A stretch of DNA of 23,071 nucleotides from positions 1 to 23,071 of IMG/VR virus record IMGVR_UViG_3300035670_001289; one strand, 5' to 3'. The translations under genes were made by a program, and so were the position numbers. Source of the stretch: a virus. A model generated the notes under the pieces. The model had not been told where the DNA came from, searched no databases, and saw only the letters and a program-made list of their open reading frames with translations. Below are positions 4,014 to 11,471 of this stretch, piece by piece. Numbering within the stretch: position 1 is the stretch's first letter; each line of letters begins with the position of its first letter.

Positions 4014-5255
4014 ATGAGCATCAAAGCGCTGCGGGACCAGCACGCCGCCATCGTGGCGGAAGCCCGCAAGATCCTGGAGGCCGCGGAGTTCACGGGCGAC
4101 CGTGAGGCCGAGTTCGACAAGCGCATGGCGGACGCCGACGCCATCGCCAAGCGCATCGAGCGCGAGGAACAGCTCGCGAACGCCGAGGCGCGCACCGCTG
4201 CCCGCATCGCCGAGGCGGCCGAGAAGGTCGGCAAGTCCGAGTCGCAGGTCGCCGACGACGCGCAGGCCTACGCCAACGCGTTCCGCGACTACTGCCGGTT
4301 CGGCATGGAAGGCGTCGGCCCGGAGTACCGCGAGCTGTTCAAGCGTGGCTACTCGTCCGTGGACACCCGCGCGCAGAGCGTCACCGGCGGCTCGCCGGTC
4401 GGCATCTACGGCGGCTACACGGTGCCGGAGGGCTTCTTCAACGAGCTGGAACGCGCGATGAAGGCCTACGGCGGCATGCTGGAGACGGGCCGCGTCATCA
4501 CGACCGCCACCGGCAATGACCTGCCGATGCCGTACTCGGACGACACCGGCAACAGCGGCGCGATCCTCGGCGAGAACCAGCCGATCACCGAGCAGGACGT
4601 GACGTTCGGCGTCGTGACGCTGGGCGCGTACAAGTACACGTCCAAGCTGATCCGCGTCAGCTACGAGCTGTTGCAGGACTCCGCGTTCAACATGGAGTCG
4701 TTCATCGCCGAGGTGGCGGGCGAGCGCCTGGGCCGCGTGCTGAACTCGCACTTCACCACGGGCAACGGCACGTCGCAGCCGCAGGGCGTCGTGACCGGCG
4801 CTGCCGCTGGCGTCACCGGTCAGGGTTCGACCGTGCTGACGTACAACGACATCGTGGACCTTCAGCACTCCGTCGATCCGGCCTACCGCCGCAACGCGCG
4901 CTTCATGTTCAACGACAGCACGCTGAAGGCGCTGCGCAAGATCAAGGACAGCGAGGGCCGGCCGCTGTGGCAGCCGGACGTTCAGGGCGGCATCGCCGGC
5001 ACCCTGATCGGCGTCCCGTACACGATCAACCAGGACATGGCCTCGATCGGCCTGTCGGCGAAGTCGGTGCTGTACGGTGACTTCAGCCACTACTTCATCC
5101 GCCGCGTGCGCGACTTCACGCTGGTCCGGCTGAACGAGCGCTACGCGGACAACCTGCAGGTGGGCTTCTTCGTCTACTGCCGGTTCGACGCCAAGCTGAA
5201 GAACGCCGGCCAGAACCCGATCAAGTACCTGGTCCACCCGGCGGCCTCCCCGTAA
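4014..5255 (+). CDS. Major capsid protein, HK97 family
   Basis: A 413-residue HK97-fold capsid subunit with a built-in scaffold. Residues 1 to about 115 are charged and helical (Ala/Glu/Lys/Arg-rich), resembling the delta domain that the upstream protease removes. The mature part probably begins near TRAQSVTGGSPVG (residues 118-130), just before the conserved GGYTVPEGF (133-141). The exact cleavage site is inferred, not visible. Later family segments include SYELLQDSAFNMESF and the LIGVPYTINQDM region. Length is typical. No separate scaffold or decoration gene is seen nearby. The gene has an excellent ribosome binding site and ends with TAA, followed by a GC-rich hairpin. Confidence 0.95.
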   Translation: MSIKALRDQHAAIVAEARKILEAAEFTGDREAEFDKRMADADAIAKRIEREEQLANAEARTAARIAEAAEKVGKSESQVADDAQAYANAFRDYCRFGMEGVGPEYRELFKRGYSSVDTRAQSVTGGSPVGIYGGYTVPEGFFNELERAMKAYGGMLETGRVITTATGNDLPMPYSDDTGNSGAILGENQPITEQDVTFGVVTLGAYKYTSKLIRVSYELLQDSAFNMESFIAEVAGERLGRVLNSHFTTGNGTSQPQGVVTGAAAGVTGQGSTVLTYNDIVDLQHSVDPAYRRNARFMFNDSTLKALRKIKDSEGRPLWQPDVQGGIAGTLIGVPYTINQDMASIGLSAKSVLYGDFSHYFIRRVRDFTLVRLNERYADNLQVGFFVYCRFDAKLKNAGQNPIKYLVHPAASP

Positions 5256-5310: not shown

Positions 5311-5547
5311 ATGAAGATTCGCGTGCTGGAAAGCTGCGCAGGTCCGTACTACGACTTCGCGGTTGGCGTTCACGAAGTGTCCGAGCGCATCGGCTACGAG
5401 CTGTGCAACAGCGGATTGGCCGAGCCGATCCGCGAGGAAGTGCCGGAAGTCGCCGAGGTGGAAGCCGCGCCTGAGGTCGCGGTGACACGCCGCGCGCGAG
5501 GCCGTCCGCGTGGTAGCCGCAACCGGCCCAAGCCTGACGCGGAGTGA
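5311..5547 (+). CDS. Small post-capsid protein with AT-hook-like C-terminus
   Basis: A 78-residue protein. Residues 1-40 (MKIRVLESCAGPYYDF then an acidic stretch ending GLAEPI) resemble small phage proteins often found next to the capsid gene, whose role I do not know. Residues 41-58 are acidic and Pro/Val-rich. Residues 60-75 are strongly basic and contain RGRPRGSRNRPKP, which matches the AT-hook core (RGRP/GRPR) used for minor-groove DNA binding. No Shine-Dalgarno site is visible before the ATG, and a stable hairpin ends seven bases upstream. The last 38 bases overlap the next gene. It could be a minor head or DNA-associated protein, but this is inference. Confidence 0.7.
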   Translation: MKIRVLESCAGPYYDFAVGVHEVSERIGYELCNSGLAEPIREEVPEVAEVEAAPEVAVTRRARGRPRGSRNRPKPDAE

Positions 5548-6109
5548 CCTCGACGCTGTAAGGGCGGCGGGCATCCCGCTGCTGGTGGTGAACGACGCCT
5601 GGCGGCTCGCGCCGTGGGCGGATGACCTGTACGCCTGCGACTATCGCTGGTGGAAGGTCCACGAACAGGCATCGCGTGCGTTTCAGGGCACGCGGTGGAC
5701 GCAGGACCAGAAGGCGGCGCGCGAGTGGAAGTCGCTGCGGTTCATTCCAAGCGCGCCGCGGCTTGGGCTTGGCACGGATCCAGCGGGGCCGATCCATCAG
5801 GGGCAGAACAGCGGCTATCAGGCCGTGAATCTGGCGTACCTGCTGGGCGCGCGCACGGTGATCCTGCTCGGCTATGACATGTCGCACGACAACGGCCGGG
5901 CGCATTTCTTCGGCTCGCATTCTCAGAACGGGCTGATCGACGCGCCGGACTACCGTCCCTACGCCAAGGCTTTTGAGCACATGGCACCGGGGCAGTACGG
6001 GCTGACGGTCATCAATTGCAGCCGGAGGTCGGCGCTTGAGTGCTTCCCGCGAGAGCGGCTGGAGGACGTTCTGCTGCGCTATCAGGCAGCAGCCGCACTA
6101 CCGGCGTGA
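5510..6109 (+). CDS. Rossmann-fold glycosyltransferase-like protein (GT42/DUF115-like)
   Basis: A 199-residue protein. It opens with a hydrophobic strand and a nucleotide-binding-type loop ATGPSLT (residues 4-10), then a second strand LLVVNDAWRLAP. A later NSGYQAVNLAYLLGA helix runs into a strand VILLGYDM (residues 100-124). The end carries INCSRRSALECFPR (168-181). This order resembles bacterial sialyltransferases of family GT42 and the DUF115/MptE-like group, where a NGPSL-like loop binds the nucleotide. Substrate and exact activity cannot be told. The GTG start is supported by GAGG at 5498-5501, eight bases upstream, and an in-frame stop at 5483 leaves little room for another start. It opens the sugar cassette and overlaps both neighbours. 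Confidence 0.7.
   Translation: MVAATGPSLTRSDLDAVRAAGIPLLVVNDAWRLAPWADDLYACDYRWWKVHEQASRAFQGTRWTQDQKAAREWKSLRFIPSAPRLGLGTDPAGPIHQGQNSGYQAVNLAYLLGARTVILLGYDMSHDNGRAHFFGSHSQNGLIDAPDYRPYAKAFEHMAPGQYGLTVINCSRRSALECFPRERLEDVLLRYQAAAALPA
6024..6029 (+). promoter_or_regulatory. Ribosome binding site deciding a TTG start
   Basis: GGAGGT inside the end of the preceding gene sits six bases before TTG at 6036. It is the main reason for choosing this rare start codon for the next gene, as no ATG or GTG lies in that frame before the conserved N-terminal strand. Confidence 0.6.
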
Positions 6110-6809
6110 TGCGTTCGTCTCAGGGCTGCGCAAGGTCGGACTGAAAGAAACCGCAGCGGAGTCGGCGGACGTGTTCGTCTGCTGGAACCGCTATGGGATA
6201 TGGGACCGGCAGGCTGCATCGGTCGAGAGGCGCGGCGGCGTGGTGCTGGTCGCTGAGAACGGCTATCTCGGCAACGACTTCGCCGGGTCGCTTTGGTACG
6301 CCATCAGCCGATCGCAGCACAACGGCGCGGGGCAGTGGCCGATGGGCGACGCGGCGCGCTGGGATTCGCTGGGCGTGGATCTCGCGCCCTGGCGGCAGTC
6401 GGGCGAGACGGTGGTCCTCCCGCAGCGTGGGATCGGCCCGCAGGGCGTTGCGATGCCTGCTGGCTGGGTCGATTCGGTGCAGCATCGCCACGGACGGTTC
6501 CGGGTGCGCCCGCATCCCGGGCAGAACGAATGCGTACCGCTGGACCGTGACCTTGATCGCGCCGGGGCGGTGGTGACGTGGGGCAGCGGGGCGGCGCTGA
6601 AGGCGCTGCTGTGGGGCATCCCGGTGTTCTACGACTTCCCTCGCTGGATTGGCGCATCGGCCTCGCGCCCGCTGACGGATTACAAGCTCGGCCCGCGTCG
6701 AGACGACGGGGCGCGGCTTCGCATGTTCCATAGCCTCGCGTGGGCGCAGTGGCGTCTGCCTGAGATCGAATCGGGGGAAGCGTTTTGGCACCTGCTCGGG
6801 AGCTGGTAG
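6036..6809 (+). CDS. GT-B-like glycosyltransferase, capsule-synthesis (Kps) type
   Basis: A 257-residue protein starting with TTG and overlapping the previous gene by 74 bases. After a strand and CAIRQQPHYRR (residues 14-24) come ADVFVCW (44-50) and VVLVAENGYLG (69-79). The C-terminal half has RVRPHPG (156-162) and VTWGSGAALKALLWGIPVF (180-198). An Arg/His-Pro element followed by a T-S-alanine helix and GIPV is the donor-binding pattern of capsule polysaccharide proteins of the KpsC/KpsS type and related GT-B enzymes. The last 30 residues (MFHSLAWAQWRLPEIESG) recur in the gene at 8682, so the two are paralogues. No membrane segments. Donor sugar and acceptor are unknown. Confidence 0.65.
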   Translation: MSASRESGWRTFCCAIRQQPHYRRDAFVSGLRKVGLKETAAESADVFVCWNRYGIWDRQAASVERRGGVVLVAENGYLGNDFAGSLWYAISRSQHNGAGQWPMGDAARWDSLGVDLAPWRQSGETVVLPQRGIGPQGVAMPAGWVDSVQHRHGRFRVRPHPGQNECVPLDRDLDRAGAVVTWGSGAALKALLWGIPVFYDFPRWIGASASRPLTDYKLGPRRDDGARLRMFHSLAWAQWRLPEIESGEAFWHLLGSW

Positions 6810-6845
6810 TCAAGGATCCGCAAGTCTTTCTCTGGTAAAGTTTCA

Positions 6846-6909
6846 GGTGCGCCTAGGGTCGCACCCGAAAAGCCGTCATCCTGACCGGTCTGGCGCACAC
6901 ACAGTCAGG
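6846..6909 (+). promoter_or_regulatory. Two inverted repeats in the leader of the AT-rich gene
   Basis: The 118-base gap 6810-6927 is the longest between plus-strand genes in this window. It contains GGTGCG (6846-6851) pairing with CGCACC (6860-6865) around an eight-base loop, then CCTGAC (6880-6885) pairing with GTCAGG (6904-6909). Either could be an operator or a leader hairpin. A weak -10-like TAAAGT lies at 6836-6841 but no fitting -35 element is present, so I do not claim a promoter. Confidence 0.35.
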
Positions 6910-6927
6910 CTGTCACAGGAGACAGGC

Positions 6928-7269
6928 ATGGATACCGTCGTCAGCAAGATCGCAAGCGCTCAAATAAAGAAGGCCGTCAAGAGCAGCGTCGATTCATTGG
7001 AGGTCGAACTTGCGCAGATTGTGCGAGCGCAAGTCGCCATGTACGTTGAGAACAACTCAGACCAAATCGCCAGTGAAATTGGCAAGGCGGTCAAAAATCT
7101 CTTTTCTGATTTTTTCGTGCAACGTGTCACAAAAGAACTCATGAAGCCGTTGCTTGAACGTGCTTTTGAAAGGGCTTTTGAGTCATGGCACATTGCCGAA
7201 CACCTCTCCGCGCAAATTGGCCCCGCCATATCAAACGCCCTGAAAATCGAACAGGGTAAGCGCGAATGA
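6928..7269 (+). CDS. AT-rich small helical protein of unknown function (moron-like)
   Basis: A 113-residue protein that I do not recognise. It has no Pro until mid-protein and is almost entirely predicted helix with heptad-like hydrophobic spacing (SLEVELAQIVRAQVAMYV, VTKELMKPLLERAFERAF), so an amphipathic or coiled-coil oligomer is likely. No signal peptide or membrane helix. The ATG at 6928 follows AGGAGA at 6917-6922. An upstream in-frame start at 6847 is possible but would code through the leader hairpins. Base content is the oddity: 145 of 300 bases in 6961-7260 are G or C (48%) against about 70% in the flanking enzyme genes. With its own leader and a terminator behind it, this looks like a recently acquired, separately expressed insert. 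Confidence 0.75.
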   Translation: MDTVVSKIASAQIKKAVKSSVDSLEVELAQIVRAQVAMYVENNSDQIASEIGKAVKNLFSDFFVQRVTKELMKPLLERAFERAFESWHIAEHLSAQIGPAISNALKIEQGKRE

Positions 7270-7303
7270 AAAGCGCCGCATAGGCTTGGCTCATGTTTCG
7301 TTT

Positions 7304-7334
7304 AAAAGGCCGCCAAATGGCGGCCTTTTCTTTT
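7304..7334 (+). terminator. Intrinsic terminator after the AT-rich gene
   Basis: A perfect 11-base-pair stem, AAAAGGCCGCC (7304-7314) with GGCGGCCTTTT (7319-7329), has a four-base AAAT loop and is followed by CTTTT. The A-run and T-run on both sides mean it could work in either direction. It closes the AT-rich insert and stands only eight bases before the next ATG, so the downstream genes depend on read-through. Confidence 0.85.
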
Positions 7335-7342
7335 GAGGCCGC

Positions 7343-8185
7343 ATGAATATTCTCGTTACAGGGAAGGGCGGCCGGTCTGGAAGCTGGCAGATCCGCGGAT
7401 TGCAGCTCGGGCACGCCATCGGCGCGGAAGTGCAGCCGATGGCAGAGATCGCCGACTGCCTCGCCGCCGACGTGGTGGTGGTGGTCAAGCGCTACCCGCC
7501 GGAACTGATAGCGGCGATTCGCCGCAGCGGCCGGCCTTGGGTGCTCGATCTCGTGGACGGCTGGCCGCAGCCGTGCAACTGGTCGGAAGCGCAGGCGAAG
7601 GCATGGCTGCGCGACACCCTGGACATGTTGAAGCCGACAGGCGTGGTGTTCGGCACGACGGCCATGCAGGCCGACGCAGCGTTCGAGGGGCCGTCCATCG
7701 TGCTGCCGCACCATTCTTGGCAGCGGTACGTCGAGCACTCGCCGCTGGTCCGGCAGAGCATCGCCACGGTCGGCTACGAGGGCGCGGACGCTTACCTCGG
7801 GCGCTGGCGCAAGGTCGTGCAGAAGGAATGCGACCGCCGCGGATGGCGGTTCGTCGTGAACGGCGACATGCGGACGGTCGACGTTGGCGTGGCGCTGCGC
7901 GAGGGCGGCGGCTACCCGGCGCAGAAGTGGAAGCCGGGCACGAAGCTCAGCAACTTGCACGCGCTGGGCATCCCGGCGCTGTGCAGTCCTGAGCAGGGCT
8001 GCCGCGAGGTGTCCTGCGGGGCAGAGTTCTGGATCCAGTCGGCGGATGACGTGGCGCATGCGTTCGACACGCTTTGCGACCTCGACGTGCGCCTTCCGGT
8101 GGCGACCGCCATGCGCGACGCGATGCTACCGGTTCACCACGTCGCCGGCAGGTACGAAAAGTGGCTGACGACTATCGCGCGCTGA
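7343..8185 (+). CDS. GT-B-like glycosyltransferase
   Basis: A 280-residue protein. The N-terminus MNILVTGKGGRSGSWQIRG is a Rossmann strand and glycine loop of the kind that opens GT-B enzymes. AADVVVVVKRY (41-51) and RPWVLDLVDGWP (64-75) are further strands. The C-terminal domain has KPGTKLSNLHALGIPALCSPEQGCRE (197-222). In GT-B families a KP-x-TKL helix followed by a GxP strand and a late Glu binds the nucleotide sugar. Related proteins occur in other phage genomes, but I cannot name the sugar. The ATG has only a GAGG at 7335-7338, four bases away, and lies just after the terminator. It overlaps the next gene by 25 bases. Confidence 0.65.
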   Translation: MNILVTGKGGRSGSWQIRGLQLGHAIGAEVQPMAEIADCLAADVVVVVKRYPPELIAAIRRSGRPWVLDLVDGWPQPCNWSEAQAKAWLRDTLDMLKPTGVVFGTTAMQADAAFEGPSIVLPHHSWQRYVEHSPLVRQSIATVGYEGADAYLGRWRKVVQKECDRRGWRFVVNGDMRTVDVGVALREGGGYPAQKWKPGTKLSNLHALGIPALCSPEQGCREVSCGAEFWIQSADDVAHAFDTLCDLDVRLPVATAMRDAMLPVHHVAGRYEKWLTTIAR

Positions 8186-8691
8186 ACGAGTGGATGCGCC
8201 AGACGCTGCGGCCCAAGGGCCGGGCCCTGGTCGTCGGCTCCAAGGTCTACCACACGAAGCCGGACCGGCGTGCGCTGTACGAGGAAGCCTTCGGCGTCGA
8301 CATGGAGGACGGCCCGGGCGTCGATCTTGTGCATGACCTTGAACGCGCGCTTCCGCGCAAGCTGGGGCCGTTCCGGCATCTGGATTGCGTGAGCGTGCTT
8401 GAGCACGTCCGAAACCCGTTCAAGTTCTGCGCGAACGTGGAAAAGGCGCTCGATCCTGGCGCATCGGTGCTCATCAGCGTTCCTTGGGTCTGGCGGTTCC
8501 ACGGCTACCCGAACGACTACTGGCGGTTCACCCCGTCTGCGATCCGCGTGCTGTTCCCGTCCGTCGATTGGGTGGCCGAGGCTTTCCTCATCTCGGGCCG
8601 GATCATGGACGCGGTGCCGAAGGAACAGATTGGCCCGCACCGGTATCTGGCGAAGTCCGAGCTGGTCATGGCGGGGCGCGTGTGCGGCTGA
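8161..8691 (+). CDS. Class I SAM-dependent methyltransferase (type 11 like)
   Basis: A 176-residue protein with GTG start, supported by AGGT at 8150-8153 seven bases upstream. An alternative ATG at 8194 would remove ten residues before the SAM-binding fold. Motif I is degenerate (RALVVGSK, residues 21-28). An acidic segment VDLVHDLER (54-62), then CVSVLEHVRNP (76-86) and ASVLISVPWVWRFHGYPNDYWRFTP (101-125), correspond to the later strands of the class I fold. The HGYPxDYxRFTP stretch is typical of methyltransferases found with surface polysaccharide genes, which suggests sugar O-methylation as a working idea. It overlaps both neighbours, in keeping with coordinated expression. Confidence 0.75.
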   Translation: MADDYRALNEWMRQTLRPKGRALVVGSKVYHTKPDRRALYEEAFGVDMEDGPGVDLVHDLERALPRKLGPFRHLDCVSVLEHVRNPFKFCANVEKALDPGASVLISVPWVWRFHGYPNDYWRFTPSAIRVLFPSVDWVAEAFLISGRIMDAVPKEQIGPHRYLAKSELVMAGRVCG

Positions 8692-9467
8692 CGATCTGGC
8701 AGACGCACATGTGGCGGCCGCGAGTCGCGCGTTTCATGCGGATGCTGCAAAGCGCCGCGATCGGACACAAGCACAAGATTCAGGTCGTCTCAAGCGTCAA
8801 CAACGCGCAGGGCGTGCTGGTCGTGTGGGGCGCTGGCAAGTCGGAGACGGCGGCTGGTGTCGAGCAGTACGTGCGCAACGGTGGCCGGGCGATCTGCTGG
8901 GATGTCGGCTATTGGGGCAAGTGCCTGCGGCTGGCGTTTGACGGGCATCACCCCAGCTTTTTGCCGGAGCCGAACGAATACCGCGGCCGGGTGAACCCGG
9001 TTGCGCTGCGAAGCGAGCATGACCCGGACGGGCACATCGTGCTGGTCGGGATTGGCCCGAAGTCGCGGCACATGGCGCATTCGTGGGAAGCGGACGCACT
9101 CAGAAAGGTGCGCGAGGCGTACCCGGGCCGGCGGATCGTTTACAGACCGAAACCGAACCGGGAGTACGTCGAGCTTCCCGGCGTCGAGACAGACGGCCGA
9201 AGCAAGATCGAGGACGTGCTGCGCGGCGCTTCGCTTGTCGTGACCCGGCACAGCAATGTCGGAATCGACGCGTGCATCGCCGGCATTCCGGTGGTGACGG
9301 ATATGGGCGTCGCCGCCTTCCTGTATCGCGGTCCGCTCGACCACCCGACGCGGCCGACGCACTCGCAGCGCCGGCAGTTTCTGGACTCCGTTGCGTGGCT
9401 GAACTGGCGAGACGACGAAGCCCGCAGCGCGGCGCTGTGGAGCTTCCTGCAAAGGCACCTCGGATGA
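8682..9467 (+). CDS. GT-B-like glycosyltransferase, paralogue of the gene at 6036
   Basis: A 261-residue protein with a GTG start overlapping the methyltransferase stop by ten bases. It begins with a strand VRLTIWQTHMWRPR, then GVLVVWGAG (44-52) and GGRAICWDVGYWG (67-79). The C-terminal donor-binding region is VYRPKPN (153-159) and SLVVTRHSNVGIDACIAGIPVVTD (184-207), the Kps-type pattern. It ends with FLDSVAWLNWRDDEARSAALW, which lines up with the tail of the 6036 protein. The shared order of motifs supports an old duplication. No membrane segment is seen. An alternative ATG lies at 8709 but would cut into the first strand. The next gene starts in its stop codon (ATGA). Confidence 0.65.
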   Translation: MRLTIWQTHMWRPRVARFMRMLQSAAIGHKHKIQVVSSVNNAQGVLVVWGAGKSETAAGVEQYVRNGGRAICWDVGYWGKCLRLAFDGHHPSFLPEPNEYRGRVNPVALRSEHDPDGHIVLVGIGPKSRHMAHSWEADALRKVREAYPGRRIVYRPKPNREYVELPGVETDGRSKIEDVLRGASLVVTRHSNVGIDACIAGIPVVTDMGVAAFLYRGPLDHPTRPTHSQRRQFLDSVAWLNWRDDEARSAALWSFLQRHLG

Positions 9468-9679
9468 TCGTGTTCGTCATCATCGGAAGCGGCTTTGGCT
9501 CGCATGAGCCAGAGCGAGTGATGTCTGTTTGGACGACCAAGCAAGGGGCCGATGAGTGCTGTGCTCGGCTCAATGCCGAGTCAGCGCGTCCGCATTACGG
9601 GGAATACGAGGTCAGGGAGATCGAAACGGACGTGCAGGCGAGGTGCCCGCTTTCGGGTGGGCCGGACTTCATCAACTGA
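9464..9679 (+). CDS. Small protein of unknown function in the sugar cassette
   Basis: A 71-residue protein, MIVFVIIGSGFGSHEPERVMSVW at the start, then TTKQGADECCARLN and a final EYEVREIETDV strand. The strand-helix-strand layout resembles small phage proteins of the DUF7336 kind (a strand, an xVFSTKEEAE-like helix and a strand), but the match is only by eye. The ATG overlaps the stop of the preceding gene (ATGA). Its base composition looks lower in G+C than the flanking enzymes. A role in the cassette is not indicated by any motif. Confidence 0.6.
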   Translation: MIVFVIIGSGFGSHEPERVMSVWTTKQGADECCARLNAESARPHYGEYEVREIETDVQARCPLSGGPDFIN

Positions 9680-9686
9680 GCATGGC

Positions 9687-10208
9687 ATGAGAATCAACTA
9701 CGGCTGCGGCCGGCAAGTGCTGGACGGCTGGATCAACGTGGACGCCGTGCGCAGCCCGCAGGCTCCGCGCCCGCCTGACGTGCTGTTCGCCATGCGATTC
9801 GACGCAAGCGGCGCGCTGATCGAGCGCACGCCTTTGCCGGACGAGTGCGCGACGGACCTTCAGGCGATGCACGTGATTGAGCACTTCTATGCGTGGGAAG
9901 TGCCTGCGGTGCTGGCAGAGTGGCGGCGGCTGTTGCAGCGCGGCGGCCGGCTGATCCTGGAACTGCCGAACCTCGAAATGGCCGCCCGCAACCTGCTGTC
10001 GTGCATGGGCGACAAGATGAGCATGTGGCCGCTGTACGGCGACCCCGCGCACCGCGACCCGTACATGTGCCACCGATGGGGCTACACGCCGCGGACGCTT
10101 TCGCAGGCGCTGCTCGACGCAGGGTTCGTGAAGCCGCAGTTCCTTCCGCCGCAGACGCACGGGCGGAAGGTCAACCGGGACATGCGCTGCGAAGCGATCC
10201 GGCCGTGA
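9687..10208 (+). CDS. Predicted SAM-dependent methyltransferase (COG4627-like)
   Basis: A 173-residue protein with the SAM-binding signature NYGCGRQVLDGWINVDA at residues 4-20 (GCG loop and acidic Asp19), MHVIEHF at 61-67 and RGGRLILELPNLE at 85-97. These are the canonical motif I, motif post-II and motif IV positions of a short class I methyltransferase, often found among cell-surface sugar genes. It is unlike the other methyltransferase at 8161, so the two may act on different positions or molecules. The ATG follows the previous stop by seven bases and has a poor ribosome site. The stop overlaps the next GTG start. The later part holds several His, Cys and Tyr residues, with no membrane segment. 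Confidence 0.8.
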   Translation: MRINYGCGRQVLDGWINVDAVRSPQAPRPPDVLFAMRFDASGALIERTPLPDECATDLQAMHVIEHFYAWEVPAVLAEWRRLLQRGGRLILELPNLEMAARNLLSCMGDKMSMWPLYGDPAHRDPYMCHRWGYTPRTLSQALLDAGFVKPQFLPPQTHGRKVNRDMRCEAIRP

Positions 10209-10921
10209 GGTGCTACATCGGCTACGACCCGCGCGAGCGAATCGCGGCGCGGGTGGCAGAGTTTTCGCTGTTGTGCCGGTCGAGCATCCCGATCGAGTCG
10301 CACCGGATCGACTTGGTGGAATGCAAGTCGCGCGGCCTGTTCTGGCGACCGCAGGAAAAGCGCAACGGCCAGCTATGGGATGTCATCAGCGACGCGCCTT
10401 GCAGCACTGAGTTCAGCATCTCGCGCTTCCTTGTTCCGGTGATCCAGCACGAAGGCTGGGCGCTGTTCACTGACTGCGACGTGGTGTTCCTTGGCGACGT
10501 GGCCGAACTGGCCGAGATCGCCGACCCGCGCAAGGCCGTGATGGTCGTCAAGCACGACCACGCCGGAGACGAGGGCACGAAGATGGACGGCCAGATTCAG
10601 GCGCGCTATGCGCGGAAGAACTGGTCGAGCGTGGTGCTGTGGAACTGCGGCCACTCGGCCAATCGCCGGCTCGGCCTCGGCGGCGTGAACAACCTCCCGG
10701 GCCGCGCGCTGCATCAATTCTGCTGGCTTGAGGACAGCGAGATCGGCGAACTCCCGCCGGAATGGAACTGGCTTGTCGGCGTACAGCCGAAGCCTGCCGA
10801 ACCAAAGCTGGCGCACTTCACGCTTGGCGGCCCGTTCCTGCCGAACTGGCCGGGCGGCGAATACGACCACATCTGGAAGGACGAGCATGCGCGTCACTGT
10901 CATCGAACAGCCCACGGCTGA
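10205..10921 (+). CDS. GT-A-fold glycosyltransferase (GT8-like)
   Basis: A 238-residue protein with GTG start in a GTGA overlap. It begins VRCYIGYDPRERIAARVAEFSL, which matches a phage family of GT-A enzymes (xxxxGYDPRE). The strand WALFTDCDVVFLGD carries a DCD metal- and nucleotide-binding motif at residues 90-92, the DxD of GT-A glycosyltransferases. A later LAHFTLGGPFLPNW supplies His204, comparable to the C-terminal metal-binding His-x-x-Gly of GT8 enzymes. These residues suggest an active, metal-dependent sugar transferase. Donor and acceptor are unknown. It is the last member of the sugar cassette and overlaps the connector gene by 35 bases. Confidence 0.8.
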   Translation: MRCYIGYDPRERIAARVAEFSLLCRSSIPIESHRIDLVECKSRGLFWRPQEKRNGQLWDVISDAPCSTEFSISRFLVPVIQHEGWALFTDCDVVFLGDVAELAEIADPRKAVMVVKHDHAGDEGTKMDGQIQARYARKNWSSVVLWNCGHSANRRLGLGGVNNLPGRALHQFCWLEDSEIGELPPEWNWLVGVQPKPAEPKLAHFTLGGPFLPNWPGGEYDHIWKDEHARHCHRTAHG

Positions 10922-11471
10922 GCCGGTAAGCCTGGCGGAAGCCAAGGCGCACATGCGCGTCGACCTTTCGGACGACGACGCCCTGATCGAAGCGCTCATC
11001 ACTGCGGCACGGCAGTGGGTCGAATCCGTGACGAACCGGGCGATCGGCCTGCAACTGATCGAGGTCGCCTATCCGCGGTTCATGCGCGAGGTGGAGCTTC
11101 CGCGGCCACCGCTTCGGTCGGTGGTCGGTGCGTACTACCGCGACCAGCAGGGAGTCGACCAGACGGTTGACCCTGCGACTTACCGCGTCATCCCGTCGTC
11201 GGACAACCAGCCGGCCATGCTTGAGCGCGAGTATCAGCAGGCATGGCCGTCGCCGACGTACCGCAGCGAGCGCGCCGTGTGGGTGCGCTACTACGCCGGC
11301 TGGGACACGACCGGCAGCCCGGCGGACATCGTGCCTGCGGCGATCAAGCAGGCGATCCTGCTGGTGGTCGCGGACATGTACGAGCACCGCGAGGCGATGC
11401 TCGACGCGCAGACGTATGAAAACGTGTGCGCGCGCCGTCTGCTGGCGGTCCATGCGGTGCCTTCGCTGTGA
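10887..11471 (+). CDS. Head-tail connector protein, gp6-like
   Basis: A 194-residue protein of the HK97 gp6/SPP1 gp15-like adaptor family, which forms the ring under the portal. The family opening is clear: MRVTVIEQPTAEPVSLAEAKAHMRVDLSDDDALIEALITAARQWVES, followed by a strand-rich middle and a C-terminal helical part with IKQAILLVVADMYEHREA. Length is within the usual range. The ATG at 10887 lies inside the end of the glycosyltransferase gene, with AAGG at about 10877 upstream. The overlap shows that the sugar cassette is transcribed and translated as part of the head operon. Confidence 0.92.
   Translation: MRVTVIEQPTAEPVSLAEAKAHMRVDLSDDDALIEALITAARQWVESVTNRAIGLQLIEVAYPRFMREVELPRPPLRSVVGAYYRDQQGVDQTVDPATYRVIPSSDNQPAMLEREYQQAWPSPTYRSERAVWVRYYAGWDTTGSPADIVPAAIKQAILLVVADMYEHREAMLDAQTYENVCARRLLAVHAVPSL

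Follow-up and report, generated by a model that had tools for sequence, protein, structure and literature searches.

In this study, we describe a set of seven enzyme genes, g1 to g7, which lies on one strand between the major capsid gene and a gp6-like connector gene in IMG/VR record IMGVR_UViG_3300035670_001289, a fragment in a viral contig collection (the window, by which we mean the whole stretch of 23,071 bases that was analyzed). The window carries a siphophage structural module with small and large terminase, portal, protease, capsid, connector, tail tube and tape measure genes, and the set encodes five glycosyltransferase (GT)-like proteins (g1, g2, g3, g5 and g7) and two methyltransferase-like proteins (g4 and g6). 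The cassette is real, widespread and ordered, and its enzyme-level assignments are strong; it is of a kind already known, phage-encoded glycan modification, and not a new category. The explanation that we prefer, with slightly less than even confidence, is the assembly, in the cytosol, of a methylated glycan that contains an ulosonate, is produced together with the virions and is probably carried by a virion protein.

It seems that a late-expressed, cytosolic line of enzymes would build a methylated acidic oligosaccharide, in which g2 would transfer an ulosonic acid activated by cytidine monophosphate (CMP), most simply 3-deoxy-D-manno-oct-2-ulosonic acid (Kdo), g1, g5, g3 and g7 might add further sugars, and g4 and g6 would methylate the glycan. 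The most likely destination would be a structural protein, with the particle surface being altered as a result. Because the cassette overlaps genes of the capsid module and the connector gene, synthesis of the glycan probably accompanies that of the virions, and the position of the cassette, these overlaps and the lack of flippase-type proteins all favor a product made with the virion.

Predicted enzymes of the cassette

The g2 protein is nearly blank by sequence. Its AlphaFold model (predicted local distance difference test score, pLDDT, 94.7) has WbbB, KpsC and KrkA as top matches (Foldseek E 4e-5; VIA Z 12.2 to about 8), the next unrelated GT-B rows being found at a Z of about 6; only retaining beta-Kdo transferases stand clearly above background. 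In KrkA, WbbB and KpsC the (K/R)xHP motif of the donor site binds CMP, and in their QxxxD motif the Gln binds the Kdo carboxylate and the Asp is the nucleophile, acting in a double displacement (PMC12887879, PMC10148158). Among 90 g2 sequences, the RxHP motif is kept (R in 88, H in 81 and P in 83), as is the Gln of QxxxD (89 of the 90), whereas the nucleophile position is occupied by Gly in 71 and by Asp in only 4. Since the nucleophilic Asp is missing, it is not certain that g2 transfers Kdo; since RxHP and the Gln are retained and the Asp is mostly Gly, g2 looks like an enzyme that transfers a CMP-activated ulosonic acid by some route other than the known covalent one. The g2 protein shares with WbbB (GT99), KpsC (GT107) and KrkA (GT140) the fold, the CMP-binding motif and the QxxxD Gln, a likeness of fold and motif, and differs from them in the replaced catalytic Asp, in being shorter and in being viral. 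The g5 protein is a divergent relative of g2, as indicated by alignment and profile cross-hits, and its donor is less certain because it mostly carries RxKP (52 of 82 sequences). The g2 and g5 families extend the range of sequences known for Kdo-transferase-like folds, and the missing nucleophile poses a clear catalytic question.

The g3 model (pLDDT 96) matched HepE, PimB, BshA and SdgB in Foldseek (E 9e-8) and superposed on PimA with a Z of 21.2 and a root-mean-square deviation of 2.8 over 263 residues, as a GT4-type GT-B fold. A first-pass annotation, made from the letters of the window, had called several GT-B enzymes, and the models of g2 and g3 agree with it, giving a Kdo-transferase GT-B and a GT4-like GT-B, respectively; for two of the three GT-B calls the sequence gave a weak signal or none, and it was structure that decided them.

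The g1 protein matches a profile annotated as "alpha-2,3-sialyltransferase" (PHROG 4603, Table 1) and, weakly, the MptE-like (DUF115) Pfam family, the latter in 28 of 34 homologues and, for g1 of the window, at E 0.005, below the cut-off. These matches recall the Maf and GT42 protein sialyl- and nonulosonate transferases, from which g1 differs in being much shorter and below the Pfam cut-off, the comparison being one of sequences. No KpsC-type or MptE-like protein that could have provided comparison profiles was found in three host genomes, and a sequence-profile search of the PDB with g1, g2, g3 and g7 gave no meaningful match. The g7 protein has a weak Glyco_transf_8 match (16.9 bits against a cut-off of 24.3), and both D90 and D92 of its DxD motif are conserved in 100% of 28 homologues. 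With regard to the methyltransferases, the family profile of g4 matched UbiG-type O-methyltransferases in the PDB (E 1.6e-5) and, weakly, Methyltransf_23, and g6 exceeds the Methyltransf_11 cut-off of 21.2 bits.

The relatives of the cassette offer clues to the donor. In a Rhodospirillaceae metagenome-assembled genome (locus L136, which also encodes terminase, portal, capsid and tail proteins), the stop of g2 overlaps the start of a gene for KdsB, the CMP-Kdo synthetase, in the sequence ATGA (TIGR00466, 162.6 bits against an equivalog cut-off of 155.2), and KdsB is followed by a HAD phosphatase, again coupled by ATGA (L136:10822-12152). Another locus, L066, has a PseF-like cytidylyltransferase within the set. 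These cytidylyltransferase genes are consistent with the g2 fold, a result that was obtained independently. Most carriers have no such CMP-sugar genes, as would be expected if host CMP-Kdo were used; diderm hosts normally make Kdo. NeuB, for nonulosonate synthesis, was found in none of 28 phages.

Recurrence of the set and its relatives

Locus scans were queried with g7, g2 and g3, and all loci were mapped with profiles; because the queries were mostly these three genes, the head-gene context was not selected for. Genes g1 and g2 occur together in 63 non-redundant loci and a six-gene core in 24, of which 18 keep the exact order 1-2-3-5-6-7. The cassettes always share the strand of the structural genes and nearly always lie in the head/connector module, most commonly between the head-closure and gp10-like genes (14 loci) or between the capsid and gp6 genes (6 loci). 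The first-pass annotation had asked whether the set travels as a unit, and it does: it recurs in order, far beyond chance, and is tied to structural genes. In four loci (L094, L096, L116 and L189) g1 is in the connector region and the remaining genes lie behind tail or tape-measure genes.

In a sample of loci drawn by portal similarity, g1 was present in this region in 21 of 36, a proportion that is not a general frequency because the queries were the portals of cassette carriers. The other occupants are also glycosylation enzymes; g1 is often accompanied by a GT9-like protein and a methyltransferase instead of g2 to g7, and the slot thus appears to be a recurrent place for glycosylation genes.

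Several variants were seen. The same connector slot in L182 (8678-11290) holds g1, g7, a HAD-IIB protein, an RfaE-domain-II-like nucleotidyltransferase, a further GT-like protein and an FkbM-like methyltransferase. Radical SAM/SPASM-type proteins are encoded between g5 and g7 in L084, L086, L133 and L078, and a PAPS (3'-phosphoadenosine-5'-phosphosulfate)-reductase/sulfurtransferase-like protein is found within the cassette of L060 (11301-12029), possibly for sulfur or sulfate chemistry.

Among cultured phages, homologues of g1 are D3 orf7, PAJU2 ORF010 and P1 PmgO. In D3, a classical HK97-type Pseudomonas phage, orf7 is directly behind the capsid gene and orf6.5, and a methyltransferase, orf13, lies between the head-closure and gp10-like genes; in the Pseudomonas phage PAJU2 the homologue is in the head-connector region and, by annotation alone, is a structural protein. 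However, g1 is the sole detectable gene shared with these two phages, g2, g3, g5, g6 and g7 not being found there. The Caulobacter giant phages (CcrColossus, CcrSC and the Bertelyviruses) come closer, having in one run g1, g2 with QRGIG and RPHP or RAHP motifs, a g5-like gene, g7, a methyltransferase and a GT9-like gene. In contrast to the window, the run stands behind tail genes and before lysis genes, has no g3 match, and its g5-like gene is recognized by the family profile only. In mycobacteriophages, phage-encoded GTs are proposed to decorate structural proteins (Freeman 2023, as cited in PMC12619734 and PMC11256854). Unlike the present set, the GTs of Maravista (F1 group, as Che8) are encoded near the 3' end of the genome, and modification is reported as demonstrated for Che8, whereas here it is a prediction from genes.

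The acceptor and alternative explanations

Several observations weigh against a glycan placed on a virion protein. The capsid and tail-tube proteins have no Ser/Thr-rich C-terminal extension, and such tails, considered as a mark of the acceptor, were dropped since carriers do not differ from non-carriers. Several capsid layouts accompany the set, which in the Caulobacter giant phages stands behind tail genes; for these two reasons the capsid specifically is not favored. In the portal-sampled control, collagen-like virion genes show no link with the set; in addition, a terminator-like hairpin stands within the set, g2 lacks the usual nucleophile, and nearly all relatives are metagenomic fragments. 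Moreover, P1 pmgO and the neighboring pmgP and pmgQ are non-essential (PMC10695390), as expected for a modification system and not specific to one. The first-pass annotation had interpreted the cassette as modifying a virion protein of capsid or tail; its transferase-like proteins, its cohesion as a unit and its link with structural genes stood, and the virion-protein target is not established.

Late remodeling of the host envelope is the main rival, which we consider possible, if somewhat unlikely. Soluble enzymes would extend or cap the lipopolysaccharide (LPS) core or another lipid-linked glycan at the inner membrane face during lytic growth, and the proposed benefit is that progeny would not be trapped on debris or infected neighbors, or that superinfection would be blocked. 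This rival is serious because LPS-core enzymes are also soluble and because the enzyme types, such as the GT8-like g7 and the Kdo-type fold of g2, resemble an LPS-core set, to which variants add an LPS-core-like GT9 protein (heptosyltransferase family), an RfaE-domain-II-like (heptose-type) nucleotidyltransferase and CMP-Kdo synthetase. The named proteobacterial hosts (Caulobacter, Mesorhizobium, Rhodospirillaceae and Pseudomonadales) are diderms, and a set that works with unrelated capsids also suits this explanation. However, the set is inside a structural operon with overlapping genes and not in a separately promoted conversion locus, and its gene order is kept among host classes whose LPS cores would vary greatly. 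The first-pass annotation was borne out in seeing no membrane segment, flippase or polymerase: at the 19-residue hydropathy maximum all cassette proteins of the window are below 2.0 and 0-3% of their homologues reach it, and no GtrA, GtrB or polytopic Gtr-type protein is in the set either. Its use of the absent membrane segments as an argument for virion glycosylation over host-glycan modification is weak, given that LPS-core GTs (GT8, GT9, GT4 and Kdo transferases) are soluble or peripheral and have no transmembrane segments. If the target is the host envelope, the cassette would be a lytic-phase counterpart of serotype conversion.

The same absence of Gtr-type proteins and membrane segments, together with a location in a structural operon and not in a lysogenic locus, leaves classical lysogenic O-antigen conversion of the Gtr kind with hardly any weight, even with temperate relatives such as D3 and a locus in a Mesorhizobium chromosome. 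The first-pass annotation had kept DNA modification open beside host-glycan modification; the latter is the rival discussed above, and the former, in which the transferases would decorate modified bases before packaging, is scarcely credible to us. DNA-glycosylating phage GTs are known (Pyle 2024, as cited in PMC12619734), but a homologue of thymidylate synthase or hydroxymethylase, the partner for that route, is lacking in 26 of 27 records, mostly longer relatives and incomplete ones, the remaining record having a thymidylate-synthase fold. Tet/JBP proteins gave no match in the 27 records in a search whose positive control was silent, and a multi-sugar, methylated set among head genes would be unusual for DNA modification. 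That the cassette modifies a collagen-like fiber whose gene follows the portal gene, and that some phages also hydroxylate its prolines, seems very improbable. Many carriers have collagen-like genes 5' to the cassette, with Pfam Collagen matches in 18 of 47 records, and a prolyl-hydroxylase-type 2-oxoglutarate-Fe(II) oxygenase is encoded in two cassettes (L061:10988-11779 and L110:3986-4723), both in phages with a collagen-like gene behind the portal. The fiber as a dedicated substrate, strong in the first cassette sample, failed in the portal-sampled control, where collagen genes accompany 4 of 21 g1-positive and 9 of 15 g1-negative loci, and the window has no collagen-like open reading frame (ORF). 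The hydroxylase, being in only 2 of the 47 records, was likewise set aside as a regular part of the cassette. In this phage group, genes for collagen-like virion proteins (for example L013:5607-6515) often follow the portal gene, whether the cassette is present or not.

Returning to glycosylation of a virion protein, this has been proven for phage enzymes in few phages. A conserved multi-enzyme set in the structural operon that includes a predicted CMP-ulosonate transferase, and whose core is present in cultured Caulobacter phages, would make it directly testable in phages of Gram-negative hosts. An unlikely, further-reaching version would be a widespread, unnamed phage system in which virions receive a coat of methylated glycan with Kdo or another ulosonic acid drawn from the host CMP-Kdo pool, by means of a new Kdo-transferase-like family that has no covalent nucleophile and follows a different, perhaps inverting, mechanism. 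We found no paper naming the cassette in the open-access literature that was searched.

Gene layout of the window

The positions of the cassette and its boundaries are given in Table 1. The first-pass annotation had placed the cassette correctly between capsid and connector genes; it had counted six enzyme genes where there are seven, besides the small ORFs at 6928-7269 and 9464-9679. Defense-system models gave no match, and in a nucleotide search against phage records the capsid gene was the sole match, a distant one.

Table 1. Features of the cassette region, with the evidence for each assignment
Feature	Position	Strand	Evidence
Major capsid protein (HK97-type), left boundary	4014..5255	+	PHROG 10 E 3.9e-77
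s1, small protein in the gap between capsid gene and cassette, overlaps g1	5311..5547	+	PHROG 2616 E 6e-4; counterpart of D3 orf6.5 by position
g1, predicted glycosyltransferase, GT42 / MptE-DUF115-like, GTG start	5510..6109	+	PHROG 4603 E 9e-44
g2, GT-B, retaining beta-Kdo transferase fold, TTG start with GGAGG upstream	6036..6809	+	AlphaFold model and motifs
Small low-GC ORF inserted between g2 and g3, outside the conserved set	6928..7269	+	GC 0.49
Terminator-like hairpin, 11-bp stem, U-rich tail, 3' of the inserted ORF	7303..7330	+	Folding
g3, predicted glycosyltransferase, GT4-like GT-B	7343..8185	+	AlphaFold model, fold matches
g4, class I S-adenosylmethionine (SAM) methyltransferase, in a minority of cassettes only	8161..8691	+	Family profile against PDB
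g5, divergent g2 relative, RPKP replacing RPHP	8682..9467	+	Alignment and profile cross-hits with g2
s2, 71-aa window-specific ORF, ATGA overlap with g5	9464..9679	+	No homologue among loci, no family match
g6, class I SAM methyltransferase	9687..10208	+	Methyltransf_11 23.6 bits; PHROG 5399 E 2e-5
g7, predicted glycosyltransferase, GT-A (GT8-like), invariant DxD	10205..10921	+	PHROG 28018 E 3e-48
gp6-like head-tail connector, right boundary	10887..11471	+	PF05135 E 1.8e-12; PHROG 442 E 1e-26

The overlapping gene starts that had been described are present in the sequence and range from 4 to 74 bp: 38 bp for s1/g1, 74 for g1/g2, 25 for g3/g4, 10 for g4/g5, 4 for g5/s2, 4 for g6/g7 and 35 for g7/gp6.

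The first-pass annotation had missed a low-GC inserted gene and a terminator-like hairpin within the set. The inserted ORF, of 113 aa, stands out from the seven enzyme genes, whose GC content is 0.65-0.68, and has a good ribosome-binding site; no homologue was found in 130 loci or in phages. A scan for promoter and terminator consensus sequences gave no site on the + strand of the region. The hairpin was spotted by eye and confirmed by folding (minimum free energy of 7296-7345, -21.2 kcal/mol; z -3.5). If it does terminate transcription, expression of the genes from g3 through the connector would depend on read-through or antitermination.

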